A stretch of 64,000 nt of DNA from positions 1,124,497-1,188,496 of the forward strand of contig NZ_CSTE01000002.1 in assembly GCF_001368915.1 (NCBI RefSeq), given 5' to 3'. The notes beneath the pieces were generated by a model. The model ran no database searches. It worked only from the letters and a program-made list of their open reading frames with translations, and was not told where the DNA came from. The DNA is from Haloferax massiliensis (GTDB lineage: Archaea; Halobacteriota; Halobacteria; Halobacteriales; Haloferacaceae). Below, piece after piece: positions 55,478-59,681 of this stretch. The translations under genes were made by a program, and so were the position numbers. Numbering within the stretch: position 1 is the stretch's first letter; each line of letters begins with the position of its first letter.

Positions 55478-56173
55478 ATGACGCGAACAGTGCTGGAGTC
55501 GCTGTTGGCCGGGAACGCGCGACACGTCGAGAGCCTCGCCGCCGACCACTTCGAGGGCGTCCGCGAGGCGCAGTCGCCGGCGGTCGTCTCGGTGAGCTGT
55601 TCGGACTCTCGGGTCCCCGCCGACGCGGTCTGGAGCGCCGACAGGGCCGGCGAGCTGTTCACGTCGGTCAACGTCGGCAATCAGGTGTGGACCGAAATCG
55701 ACGGGCGGCTCGTCGTCAACGACGCCGTCGGCTACGCGGTGTCGGCGCTCAAGTCGACAGATATCGTCGTCCTCGGGCACACGGGCTGTGGCGCGGTGAC
55801 GGCCGCCTACGAGACGGTCACCGACGGGAGCGTCGGGGACCTGCCCCCGGCGGTCGAAGCCGCCGTCTCGCGGCTCGTCCCGCTCGCCGAGGAGGCCCGC
55901 GAACTCGGCGTGTTCGACGCGGACACGCCGGGCGGCGAGGCGGTCAACCGACTCGTCGAGTACGCGGTCGTCCGGCAGGTGGAGTACCTCACCGAGAGCG
56001 ACGAGATTCCCGAGGCGACCGACTGCTGGGGCTTCGTCTACGACTTCCAGCGCGTCTACGGCGACGCCGACGGCGCGGCCTACCTCGTCGCGGCCAACGG
56101 CGAGTCGGACCCCGACGCGCTCGCCGACGTGGTTCCCGATGGGTTCGAAGAACGCGTGCGGTCGATTCGGTAA
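55478..56173 (+). CDS. Beta-class carbonic anhydrase
   Basis: A 231-residue zinc enzyme interconverting CO2 and bicarbonate. The zinc ligands are visible: Cys41 in SCSDSR with Asp43 and Arg45, and His101/Cys104 in GHTGCGA. The start is the ATG at 55478, after a GCTATATC box at about 55444-55451. The C-terminus includes WGFVYDFQRVYGDADG. It is the last G+C-rich gene before the A+T-rich island and may supply bicarbonate or CO2 to carboxylases such as RuBisCO (inference). Confidence 0.93.
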   Translation: MTRTVLESLLAGNARHVESLAADHFEGVREAQSPAVVSVSCSDSRVPADAVWSADRAGELFTSVNVGNQVWTEIDGRLVVNDAVGYAVSALKSTDIVVLGHTGCGAVTAAYETVTDGSVGDLPPAVEAAVSRLVPLAEEARELGVFDADTPGGEAVNRLVEYAVVRQVEYLTESDEIPEATDCWGFVYDFQRVYGDADGAAYLVAANGESDPDALADVVPDGFEERVRSIR

Positions 56174-56570
56174 GAAGCGATTGGCGGGCGGTTCGAGGGG
56201 ATTTGATCCGTTGGAACCCGTGATTTCTGAGCTGAATTGCGTGCAGAATAGAGAGTGTATACAGCACGCCTTGTCCCTTTATTCGACTCAATCCATATTG
56301 AACAATTGTTAGGATGAGACTGTGGGTCTACCGCACCCCTTGTATCAGTAACCCCGCCACGACAAGTATCACACACCTACTCAGCGGTTGTTTCAGAGAG
56401 GAAGGTATTGAACGGAGATAATAACAACAAATCAATATTAATCAAGACCAATTCTTAGAGTTAATACGTGGGAACCAATGGATATTATAAACATTACAGA
56501 TCTGAAACACATATTGGATTTCCAACTGTTTAGAAATGAATATGGTTTTTGATTGTCAGAGTCTAGTTGG
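56174..56570. other. Gene-poor left end of the A+T-rich island
   Basis: No convincing protein gene. Base composition falls sharply from about 56230. The longest in-frame reading is a 24-codon ORF at 56478-56552 (ATG to TGA) immediately upstream of, and in frame with, the TTG at 56553. TATA-like boxes are seen at 56432-56439 (ATATTAAT) and 56459-56466 (GTTAATAC). Left of this I see no tRNA, integrase remnant or clear att repeat. Confidence 0.5.
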
Positions 56571-57419
56571 ATGTCTGATAAGAACATAGAACAACCGAAT
56601 CGACGAACTGTTCTACAAGCTATGGGTGCAGCTGCTGGAGTTGGTTTGGTCCCAACAATCAGTTCCGGGAAAGAAGACAGCGTGGTGAAATTTGACAAAG
56701 CCATGAAGAAGCGGGATAAAAAAGATTGGAGCCTTGATAAATGGTTCAAATACATCGATGATAAAGATATAGAATACGGGAATGAACAAAAAACAACAAA
56801 AGTAGACCTGAAAACGGGTTCAAGTACAGATGGCCCGTCAACACAGATCATTTCGGGATTTGAGGAAAAAGACCTTACTCTAACAATGACTTACTACAGC
56901 CTTGGTAGTTATGACGCAGTAGAGTTACACTGGTCATTCGATAACAGTGGTATAGATGATGCATATACTGGAAAGCCAAAAGATATAGCTAAGATTGGCT
57001 ATAACCCAGACCACTACAGTAAACCCCCGGAGAGAGATGGGGAGAGTTGGTATAGCTTTGGATCTGACATGGTTGAGCTTGGCAAAAAGCAAACACCAGA
57101 AGGGGGAGCTATTGCACGGTATAATGGCCTATACTTCAAAGGTCAGAATCCACTAATTGGAGATGGTGAAGTCGGAGGTGACTTAGATCTACAAGATTAC
57201 ATGACGCTTTATATTGATCCAGACACATCTGTTCCCCTAAATGAACGAGAGATATATTTCTCCTATTCAATGCTGTATGATTCGGCAAGTCTAGGAGATA
57301 CCAATATATCCGATGATGGAATCAGTTTTGGTATTACTAACGAGGAGGATTCCTGGACCGTATCTCCGGCCTACGAACAAGAAGACCTCAGAAACGGGAA
57401 ACAATATACCCCAAACTAA
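56571..57419 (+). CDS. Tat-exported orphan protein of the A+T-rich island
   Basis: A 282-residue protein with a twin-arginine signal (NRRTVLQAMGAAAGVGLVPT, about residues 10-29). The mature part is lysine-rich near its start (KAMKKRDKKDW) and beta-rich later (about 75-280), has no cysteine, and repeats Gly-Asp and Tyr-rich turns. It is less acidic than neighbouring proteins. I recognise no domain. A halocin-like or surface role is possible because a tiny membrane protein gene follows. The ATG at 56571 is chosen; a TTG at 56553 would add six residues. Both starts keep the Tat motif. Confidence 0.55.
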   Translation: MSDKNIEQPNRRTVLQAMGAAAGVGLVPTISSGKEDSVVKFDKAMKKRDKKDWSLDKWFKYIDDKDIEYGNEQKTTKVDLKTGSSTDGPSTQIISGFEEKDLTLTMTYYSLGSYDAVELHWSFDNSGIDDAYTGKPKDIAKIGYNPDHYSKPPERDGESWYSFGSDMVELGKKQTPEGGAIARYNGLYFKGQNPLIGDGEVGGDLDLQDYMTLYIDPDTSVPLNEREIYFSYSMLYDSASLGDTNISDDGISFGITNEEDSWTVSPAYEQEDLRNGKQYTPN

Positions 57420-57516
57420 AATTAAGAAACCAGCTCTAAGCAGATCGATGGGTACTCAGGAGCCGAAATCATAAATCCGGCATGGTTATTTTCTCACAGG
57501 GGAGTGATTAACGCAA

Positions 57517-57702
57517 ATGGAAGGAAACGAACTCAGCCCAAGCGGAGATAGTCAGTCGTATAACCTGAAGGGGTATGATAAGATTAGTTTATTTATTGCT
57601 GTATTTTTATATTTTGGTTCAGAACTAAACATAATTCCATTCCAAACGGCCGTCCTTTCGTTCCTTTTTGTCATTATATTATATCTCGTCTTGGATAGCT
57701 AA
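57517..57702 (+). CDS. Small two-helix membrane protein of the island
   Basis: A 61-residue protein with a polar N-terminus (MEGNELSPSGDSQSYNLKGY) and two hydrophobic helices (about 23-36 and 40-59). A GGGGAGTGAT ribosome-binding site lies about nine bases before its ATG, which supports real translation. It follows the Tat protein by 97 bases on the same strand. A size and shape like immunity or anchor proteins is suggestive only. Confidence 0.5.
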   Translation: MEGNELSPSGDSQSYNLKGYDKISLFIAVFLYFGSELNIIPFQTAVLSFLFVIILYLVLDS

Positions 57703-57753
57703 ATACATATTATATATTCTATTATTTAAATTAGGACGACCACCCGCTCTCCC

Positions 57754-58413
57754 TCAGTCGTCTCGCGCGTCGTCGATGACGTTCGAGAACTCGCGGGCCG
57801 TCTCGGTGATGACCTCGAAGTCGCCGTTTTCGATTGCCTCGTCGTCCATGAGCGCGCCGCCCGCGCCGTCGACGACCGCGCCGGCCTCGATGTAGTCCGC
57901 GGCGTTGTCGAGGCCGACGCCGCCGGTCGGCATCATCGGAATCTGCGGGAGCGGCCCCTTCATGCTCTTGAGGTGGCCGGGGCCGAGCGAGGACGCGGGG
58001 AACACCTTCACGAGGTCCGCGCCCGCGGAGTACGCGTCGGTCGCCTCGGTCGGGGTCATGATGCCCGGCGCGACGAGCGTCCCGTAGCGGTTGCAGGTCT
58101 CGACGACGCCCTCGTCGAAGTTCGGCCCGACGACGAACTCCGCGCCGGCCTGGATGGCCGCGTTCGCGGTCGGCGCGTCGAGAACGGTCCCTGCCCCGAC
58201 GATTGCCTCGCGGTCCGAGAAGGACGCCGACACCTCGCGGATGAGGTCCATCGCGTCGGGGTTGTCGGCCGTGATTTCGTAGGCGGTGACGCCGCCCTCG
58301 TGGAGCGCGTCGGCCACGTCGATGATGGTGTCCGCGTCCGCGCCGCGCATCACCGCGACGACGCCGCTGTCGGCGAGTCGTTGCATGTCCTCGTGTACGT
58401 CGAGTGCGACCAT
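57754..58413 (-). CDS. kdgA: 2-keto-3-deoxy-6-phosphogluconate aldolase
   Basis: A 219-residue class I aldolase of the KDPG/KHG family, cleaving 2-keto-3-deoxy-6-phosphogluconate to pyruvate and glyceraldehyde-3-phosphate in the semi-phosphorylated Entner-Doudoroff pathway. The Schiff-base lysine is Lys136 (DLVKVFPAS); the catalytic glutamate is in TAYEITADNP, with GAGTVLDA and MPTGGVGLDNAADY for phosphate. I chose the ATG at 58413, which a TTTAATAC box (58437-58446, minus strand) supports. Its stop lies next to the A+T-rich island. Confidence 0.9.
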   Translation of the reverse strand: MVALDVHEDMQRLADSGVVAVMRGADADTIIDVADALHEGGVTAYEITADNPDAMDLIREVSASFSDREAIVGAGTVLDAPTANAAIQAGAEFVVGPNFDEGVVETCNRYGTLVAPGIMTPTEATDAYSAGADLVKVFPASSLGPGHLKSMKGPLPQIPMMPTGGVGLDNAADYIEAGAVVDGAGGALMDDEAIENGDFEVITETAREFSNVIDDARDD

Positions 58414-58616
58414 TGCTGTCTCGTCGTTTACTACAGATAGTATTAAATTGGGGGCCTCGCGGCATCGCTTCGGTGGCAACCCACGGCCGCCGCCTCCGTC
58501 CGGGTTCCGCGGGTGACAGTCGTGTCCGTTGTCACCACGCGACACGCTCAAATCCACTGGGCACTAACCCGAGGTAAGCGACGCCCGAGCGGTATGTGCC
58601 GCCCCGTCGCACCACC

Positions 58617-59681
58617 ATGCCAACGCATCCCGATTTCGAAGCGCTGTACCGCGACGTCATCCCCTCGGTCGTCTCCGTCTACGTCGGCGGCCGCCGCCGG
58701 CTCGGTGGGGCGGGCAGCGCCTTCGTCTACGACGACCGGCATCTCGTCACCAACGAGCACGTCTCGCGGCTCGCCGACGCCGGCGACGCCGGCCGGGTCG
58801 AACTCCGATTTGCCGACGGGTCGTGGCGCGTCGGCGAGGTCGTGGGCGCGGACGCCTACACCGACCTCGCCGTCGTCGCCGTCGACGACCTGCCCGACGA
58901 CGCCGCGGCGCTCCCACTGGCGGCCGACAACCCCGCGCCGGGGCGGTCGGTCGCCGCGCTCGGCAACCCGCTGGGCCTCGACGGCTCCATCTCCGCGGGC
59001 ATCGTCTCCGGGGCGAACCGGTCGCTTCCCACCTCGAACGGCTTCGCCATCCCGGACGTGGTCCAGACGGACGCCCCCATCAACCCCGGCAACTCGGGCG
59101 GGCCGCTCGTGGGATTCGCCGCCGGGGAATCTGACGGCGACGCCGACGCCGACGACGCCGGGGCCGCCTACGAGGTCGTCGGCGTCAACCGCGCCAAGCA
59201 GGGCGATAACATCGGCTTCGCCGTCTCGCCGGTCATCGCCAATCGCATCCTCCCGGCGCTCGTCGCCGACGGACGCTACCGCCACTCGTACCTCCGGGCG
59301 CGCACCCTCGACGTGACGCCGACGGTTGCCGACGCGAACGACCTCGACGCGCCGCACGGCGTCCTCGTCGTCGACGCCGCGGGTTCCGACGGGGACGAGG
59401 GCTTCCTCCACGGCTGTCGCGGGACGGCCGACTACCGCGGCACGGAAATCCCCGTCGGCGGCGACGTGCTCGTCGCCATCGAGGGCAACCCGGTCCGCAC
59501 CCACGAGGAGTTGATGCGCTATCTCATCACCGAGACGCGCCCCGGCGAACCCGTCGCCGTCGGCATCGTCCGCGAGGGCGACCCGCTGACGCTCGTCGTC
59601 GAACTCGACGAGCGCCCCGCCGTCGACCGCGACGACCGGAGCGACCGCGGCGGCGGCGGCAGTCGTATCCCCGTGGAGTAG
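58617..59681 (+). CDS. HtrA/DegP-like serine protease with PDZ domain
   Basis: A 354-residue trypsin-like protease. The triad is His48 (VTNEHV), Asp83 (YTDLAVV) and Ser160 (NPGNSGGPL), with the family's ALGNPLG loop. A PDZ domain occupies about 225-330. No signal peptide or membrane anchor is visible, so a cytosolic quality-control role is likely unless a Tat signal was missed. The N-terminus begins only a few residues before the protease core. The ATG at 58617 is chosen over 58596. Confidence 0.88.
   Translation: MPTHPDFEALYRDVIPSVVSVYVGGRRRLGGAGSAFVYDDRHLVTNEHVSRLADAGDAGRVELRFADGSWRVGEVVGADAYTDLAVVAVDDLPDDAAALPLAADNPAPGRSVAALGNPLGLDGSISAGIVSGANRSLPTSNGFAIPDVVQTDAPINPGNSGGPLVGFAAGESDGDADADDAGAAYEVVGVNRAKQGDNIGFAVSPVIANRILPALVADGRYRHSYLRARTLDVTPTVADANDLDAPHGVLVVDAAGSDGDEGFLHGCRGTADYRGTEIPVGGDVLVAIEGNPVRTHEELMRYLITETRPGEPVAVGIVREGDPLTLVVELDERPAVDRDDRSDRGGGGSRIPVE

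Follow-up and report, generated by a model that had tools for sequence, protein, structure and literature searches.

A widespread family of predicted Tat-exported haloarchaeal proteins with recurrent membrane-anchored partners, including a candidate effector-immunity pair in Haloferax massiliensis

We examined a 64,000-nucleotide stretch of the Haloferax massiliensis genome (the window), in which an earlier reading of the sequence had picked out an A+T-rich island with two small genes. Our analysis places the longer of the two, ORF1, in a fast-evolving haloarchaeal family whose genes recurrently adjoin genes for small membrane-anchored proteins. These partners belong to several unrelated families, at two sites the partner has been retained beside a truncated exported protein, and the site occupied by the window's own pair is variable among congeners. 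By analogy with halocins, we propose that ORF1 is a Tat-exported antimicrobial effector and that ORF2, encoded just downstream, is a membrane immunity protein, a proposal in which our confidence is evenly balanced. We infer each of its elements, namely export, antimicrobial action, immunity and target.

Results

The island (Table 1) is as distinct in base composition as originally predicted; G+C is 0.401 for positions 56230-57737, whereas the flanks have 0.713 and 0.712 and the window as a whole 0.675; in a scan of the rest of the window in 50-base steps, the minimum over stretches of 1508 bases was 0.614. It is bordered by two convergent housekeeping genes, and ORF1 and ORF2 are the only genes recognised within it. 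No recombinase gene was seen in the insert, no repeats shared by its two ends were found, there is no tRNA in the window, and neither an Rfam scan nor a plasmid DNA search returned anything. Lacking both recombinase and terminal repeats, the insert was rejected as a self-mobile or integrative element, and its description as the cargo of a small mobile element thus finds no support. Past the aldolase gene, at 58596-59681, the window encodes a trypsin-like protease with a PDZ domain (Trypsin_2, 2.7e-25); we saw no evidence of its acting on ORF1.

Table 1. Features of the insert and its flanks (positions in the window)
Feature	Position	Strand	Basis and remarks
Left flank, beta-carbonic anhydrase	55478..56173	+	Pfam Pro_CA 1.3e-23
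A+T-rich insert	56174..57753	.	Composition; congener sites; flanked by the convergent genes for carbonic anhydrase and KDPG aldolase
Stretch absent in G001, 93 bp	56249..56341	.	blastn and alignment
ORF1, 282 aa, predicted Tat-exported, candidate effector; member of the aligned family	56571..57419 (ATG 56571)	+	ORF, signal, homologues
Twin-arginine signal region of ORF1	56571..56672	+	RR at residues 11-12; cleavage site not predicted, end approximate
Predicted two-helix segment of mature ORF1, strands after	56679..56768 (residues 37-66)	+	Model, mean pLDDT 34
Stretch absent in G001, 724 bp	56782..57505	.	ORF1 lost after about residue 70; ORF2 intact
Ribosome-binding-site-like GGGGAGTGAT upstream of ORF2	57499..57508	+	Sequence
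ORF2, 61 aa, hydrophobic, candidate membrane immunity partner	57517..57702	+	ORF, hydropathy, identity in G001
Right flank, KDPG/KHG aldolase ORF	57754..58557	-	Pfam Aldolase 3e-43; true start may be internal

As had been suggested with the original prediction, we looked for the island at the same site in close relatives, using 15 genomes of the genus, the window genome among them. The interval between the carbonic anhydrase and KDPG aldolase genes is only about 10-55 bp, and the site therefore empty, in 10 of the 15 (intergenic lengths may err by a few bases, and the right flank was not reached in G007). The pair is intact at the site in the window genome. Its nearest relative, G001, carries the same insert minus two clean deletions, identified by blastn and alignment, the second of which cuts the exported protein to about 70 residues and leaves ORF2 intact. 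Three congeners carry other cargo. In G014 and G007 this consists of a MarR-like gene and, after it, one that is PemK/MazF-like; the DNA of G014 and G007 (L009) was compared, and Pfam, run with the G014 copy (L008 2346-3067), gave MarR_2 at 3.9e-7 and PemK at 7e-4, the latter just under the cut-off. In G006 (L012 2252-2929) it is a different gene of 225 aa, with a hydrophobic N-terminus and no Pfam match. The carbonic anhydrase/KDPG aldolase interval is an intergenic site of variable cargo.

ORF1 carries an RR pair followed by a hydrophobic run, in keeping with the Tat signal first proposed for it, and its match to Pfam TAT_signal (E = 0.02) falls under the gathering cut-off; it has neither a lipobox nor a further hydrophobic helix. 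The island's proteins had been called Lys/Asn/Ile-rich, which is too loose, the commonest residues of ORF1 being Asp, Gly, Ser and Lys. Beyond the sub-threshold signal match, Pfam, PHROGs and NCBIfam assign ORF1 to no family, and PADLOC gave two weak matches (E of 0.018-0.033). AlphaFold2, run with three-sequence alignments, returned two models with mean pLDDT of 34 and 38; at this very low confidence, two short N-terminal helices with strands after them are predicted for the family, the helices of ORF1 falling at residues 37-49 and 55-64 (mean pLDDT 34).

Nor is ORF1 an orphan, as it had been taken to be when no homology was seen. When ORF1 alone served as query, 13 of 392 genomes of the order, not counting its own and G001, proved to encode relatives at 22-36% identity; a profile built from 54 members detects the family at E<=1e-8 in 82 of the 391 genomes searched in the class Halobacteria. 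(A first profile search, with matches in 131 of the 391 at E<=1e-3, is not used as a count, since many of those matches span the signal peptide only.) Carriers include Natrinema altunense, Natrinema pallidum, Halobacterium bonnevillei, Halorussus aquaticus and Halobacterium hubeiense. Members are about 270 aa in size, mostly with one or two genes per module, and ORF1 is homologous to the family along its whole length; several of its relatives are stop-broken or truncated. From 98 ORFs at E<=1e-8 we counted 92 members, after discarding ORFs shorter than 220 aa, those that end short of model position 235 and duplicates, recognised by identical final 60 residues, so that stop-broken members stand outside the 92; the counted members are drawn from the same genome sets that were used to find them.

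The 54 aligned members share the RR pair and an invariant Asp (D138 of ORF1). A Y-x-H-T-W motif, the H of which is kept in 49 of the 54, reads YSMLY in ORF1, and in many members it is followed by an alternating stretch rich in glycine and serine. An RR pair lies within the first 60 residues in 87 of the 92 counted members (motif only), a lipobox-like motif is present in one and a later hydrophobic helix in none, and from these sequences the mature proteins appear to be soluble. When the 54 members were run against Pfam, NCBIfam and PHROGs, the Tat-signal models alone were widely recurrent, with a few weak matches in one to three members, and the best match of the family profile to PDB sequences (E = 0.073) lay in the signal-peptide region. 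The family is thus undescribed, being blank in these three libraries beyond the Tat signal and weak matches, and blank also in the literature searched. At two loci, L098 and L099, the exported gene stands in tandem with a second member of the family, at spacings of 76 and 28 nt, and no two-helix ORF comes directly after the pair; transposase-like ORFs, recognised by eye in the translations, lie near the members at L102, L112, L160 and L027.

To count partners, we asked for an ORF of 45-95 aa on the same strand, starting no more than 250 nt downstream and encoding two hydrophobic helices, which were called by a hydropathy threshold and not by a trained predictor. Such an ORF follows 26 of the 92 full-length members. 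The corresponding count is 3 of 92 in either of two control regions, and 0.1 would be expected by dinucleotide shuffling. Among neighbouring genes in the same loci the figure is 10 of 431 (p=6e-14, Fisher, a p-value that ignores shared ancestry and so overstates independence). When only genes with G+C below 0.56 are considered, the count is 24 of 77 for members and 1 of 45 for controls. In the distance profile, which covers the members irrespective of G+C, 24 show a two-helix ORF in the first 250 nt downstream, with 0-1 per 250-nt bin thereafter on the same strand, to 2 kb. A candidate immunity gene adjoining the candidate effector gene is found both at the level of the family, in the proportions just given, and in the window pair. 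If any orientation is allowed, a two-helix ORF lies within 300 nt of 35 of the 92; the other 57 have none, which counts against the effector-immunity reading.

That unrelated partner families recur is a stronger argument for pairing than the p-values. One of them, which we call HLRAIR, adjoins seven of the 92 members, five of these in one cluster. A second, GLQIS/GLHIS, has about a dozen members (11 at E<1e-3, the twelfth at 0.03) and accompanies exported proteins of both major clades; its genes lie upstream or downstream of the exported gene or on the opposite strand, with one copy (L076) 968 nt away. A third, EWFL, is found in three different arrangements at L072, L142, L087 and L120, and further families come in twos and threes. 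Several recur across genera, and two stay adjacent in changed orientation. In at least six members a lipoprotein is encoded downstream instead, against 1 of 92 in the control; these lipoprotein counts are minima, since the rule used missed a homologous trio of further putative lipoproteins. The tree has two main clades, one dominated by two-helix partners and the other, which holds ORF1, by lipoproteins or by no partner. Strict downstream two-helix partners are rare in the clade of ORF1 (the window, L121 and L164), which again counts against effector and immunity; in the group nearest ORF1, weakly supported at 0.60, a two-helix ORF lies on the opposite strand 72 nt upstream of the member at L104.

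The HLRAIR proteins, of about 60-70 aa, form a two-helix membrane family with a wide distribution in Halobacteria, being present at E<=1e-3 in 54 of 391 genomes, and their genes mostly stand alone (L172, L176-L197 and similar loci). Of 30 loci examined, 7 adjoin the exported family, and in 23 no remnant of that family was recognised within about 1.5 kb, an orphan being a copy whose fetched locus holds no six-frame stretch matching the family at E<=0.01. Two copies from different genomes, L195 and L196, share a neighbouring gene, which points to a stable position on the chromosome. In G146:C1, HLRAIR matches (887863 and 910146) stand at identical spacing from two exported-family matches with equal scores, near 901093 and 923376; the separation of about 22 kb would fit the duplication or misassembly of a block of that size. 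At L174, in G073, the exported protein is down to 134 aa beside an intact HLRAIR partner. Orphan and retained partners of this kind look as immunity genes would, and an independent role for the membrane family would look alike. For two close pairs, dN/dS is 0.13 for both partner and exported gene in the first, and 0.58 and 0.42, respectively, in the second, values which indicate that the genes are real and that the second pair is less constrained.

Might exported protein and partner instead form one non-toxic surface complex, such as a sensor, or an adhesin or ligand held by its anchor? Such a complex would account for recurrent partners that are membrane anchored, whether as two-helix proteins or as lipoproteins, and for an adjacency that persists in several orientations. 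However, an intact partner beside a truncated exported protein fits immunity better, and orphan partners and varied, unrelated partner families are likewise easier to reconcile with immunity than with a fixed complex. We therefore regard a surface complex as somewhat unlikely.

ORF2 had been described as a two-helix protein with a good ribosome-binding site. The ORF stands, as does GGGGAGTGAT upstream of it, which we take to resemble the complement of the haloarchaeal anti-Shine-Dalgarno sequence; of the two helices, the second is clear by hydropathy (2.31) and the first marginal (1.68). A gap of 97 nt separates ORF2 from ORF1. Pfam, PHROGs, NCBIfam and PADLOC gave no match to ORF2, and its sequence resembles none of the recurrent partner families. 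Among 170 genomes of the taxonomic family, no homologue was found beyond its own genome and G001 (2 of 170), where the protein is 100% identical. As for the same pair elsewhere, pairing as such recurs across the exported family, and ORF2 itself recurs only in G001, beside the truncated ORF1. The pair in the window appears to be more than chance because ORF1 has distant homologues and ORF2 has been kept identical in G001. The casting of ORF2 as a partner thus draws on family-level analogy, adjacency and retention in G001, rather than on partner homology.

Alternatively, ORF1 may be an enzyme or binding protein that works outside the cell, and ORF2 an unrelated passenger of the A+T-rich insert. 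The 57 members with no two-helix ORF nearby would fit this, as would an ORF2 whose relatives are limited to one congener and which is unlike the other partner families. The enrichment (26 of 92 against 10 of 431) and the recurring partner families nevertheless make it unlikely for the family overall, and we consider it improbable.

An exclusion factor derived from a virus or plasmid, with exported and membrane protein together blocking the entry of related elements, would suit a patchy, A+T-rich and site-variable distribution, and some homologues, in Halorussus aquaticus and Halobacterium hubeiense, are indeed encoded on large plasmid records. A plasmid tblastn gave two weak matches and a second such search five, one of them the query itself. 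However, there was no match in 50,697 phage records or in two single-protein IMG/VR scans, and just two PHROG families were weakly matched, by one or two of the 54 members (best E of 3e-4 and 2e-3), making this the reading to which we give very little weight. Two further candidates were rejected outright: a type II toxin-antitoxin system would be expected to be a cytoplasmic pair, whereas ORF1 has an export signal and ORF2 is hydrophobic, and a polymorphic toxin would be expected to be a large multidomain carrier, whereas ORF1 has 282 aa and family homology from end to end.

Discussion

In the effector-immunity reading that we favour, the Tat pathway would export ORF1 as a soluble extracellular protein, which would act as an antimicrobial on other cells, most likely related haloarchaea, while ORF2, in the membrane of the producer, would protect the producer. 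Since the partners are lipoproteins or membrane proteins, we favour the membrane as the target. The glycine- and serine-rich stretch that follows the Y-x-H-T-W motif suggests, by inference only, a membrane-inserting hairpin; if present, such a hairpin would give a reason for the partners being membrane proteins. At the level of the family, the design would be that of a diverging exported protein combined with interchangeable membrane-anchored partners, two-helix or lipoprotein. Presumably, chromosomes gain and lose the module at permissive intergenic sites, and in its decay the effector would be lost before the partner. The original guess of a secreted effector with a small membrane immunity or anchor protein thus gains from the recurrent two-helix or lipoprotein neighbours and loses from an ORF2 that is unlike the recurrent partner families; it is partly supported for the family and unproven for the pair in the window.

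A more speculative extension, which we hold to be possible rather than probable, is that the family constitutes a large and so far unrecognised Halobacteria-wide class of Tat-exported, probably membrane-active antimicrobials, whose exchangeable membrane immunity proteins outlast the effector as orphans. Few genes for haloarchaeal antimicrobials are known, and immunity to them is poorly understood. Here, a family present in about a fifth of the sampled haloarchaeal genomes (82 of 391) has neighbourhoods that reveal candidate immunity genes, so that archaeal competition and self-protection would become testable gene by gene, with starting points among proteins that are blank in public libraries.

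Comparison with known systems

New as the family is to the libraries searched, its logic would be of a known kind, that of a bacteriocin-like effector with immunity. Like the halocins HalH4, HalC8 and HalS8, ORF1 is a predicted exported haloarchaeal protein, the RR motif being present in ORF1 and in 87 of the 92 members; the start pattern of halH4 was found in 0 of the 15 genus genomes. According to those parts of PMC12893001 on which we draw, the active C-terminal parts of HalH4 and HalC8 are released, and the title of a work in its reference list has one gene giving both production and immunity for halocin C8. Unlike C8, as so described there, ORF1 would have its candidate immunity in a separate gene. 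In these analogues, and in HapP, an active part is set free from a secreted precursor by proteolysis.

HmHapP (HFX_0892) of Haloferax mediterranei is described in the same portion of that paper as a secreted precursor with a two-helix N-terminal part of 45 aa and a C-terminal part of roughly 190 aa, the active part of HapP being the N-terminal 45 residues with their two helices (PMC12893001). For ORF1, a model of very low confidence (mean pLDDT 34) places two helices at the N-terminus of the mature part; in a HapP-type precursor such helices would be cut free by a halolysin. Unlike the ORF1 family, HmHapP has no partner gene described in the portion of PMC12893001 used here. Seven short HapP peptides, deduced from the primers in the paper, are absent from all 92 members, and the back-translated HapP pattern VDKAVSA was found in 0 of the 15 genus genomes.

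The VARTIG modules of Thermococcales differ in having large Ig-domain proteins and multi-gene arrays, and in belonging to another archaeal lineage; in the sections of PMC8416519 on which we draw, inter-microbial conflict is one of three hypotheses put forward by the authors. As in the ORF1 family, those sections describe a variable exported protein together with matching downstream membrane-protein genes (PMC8416519).
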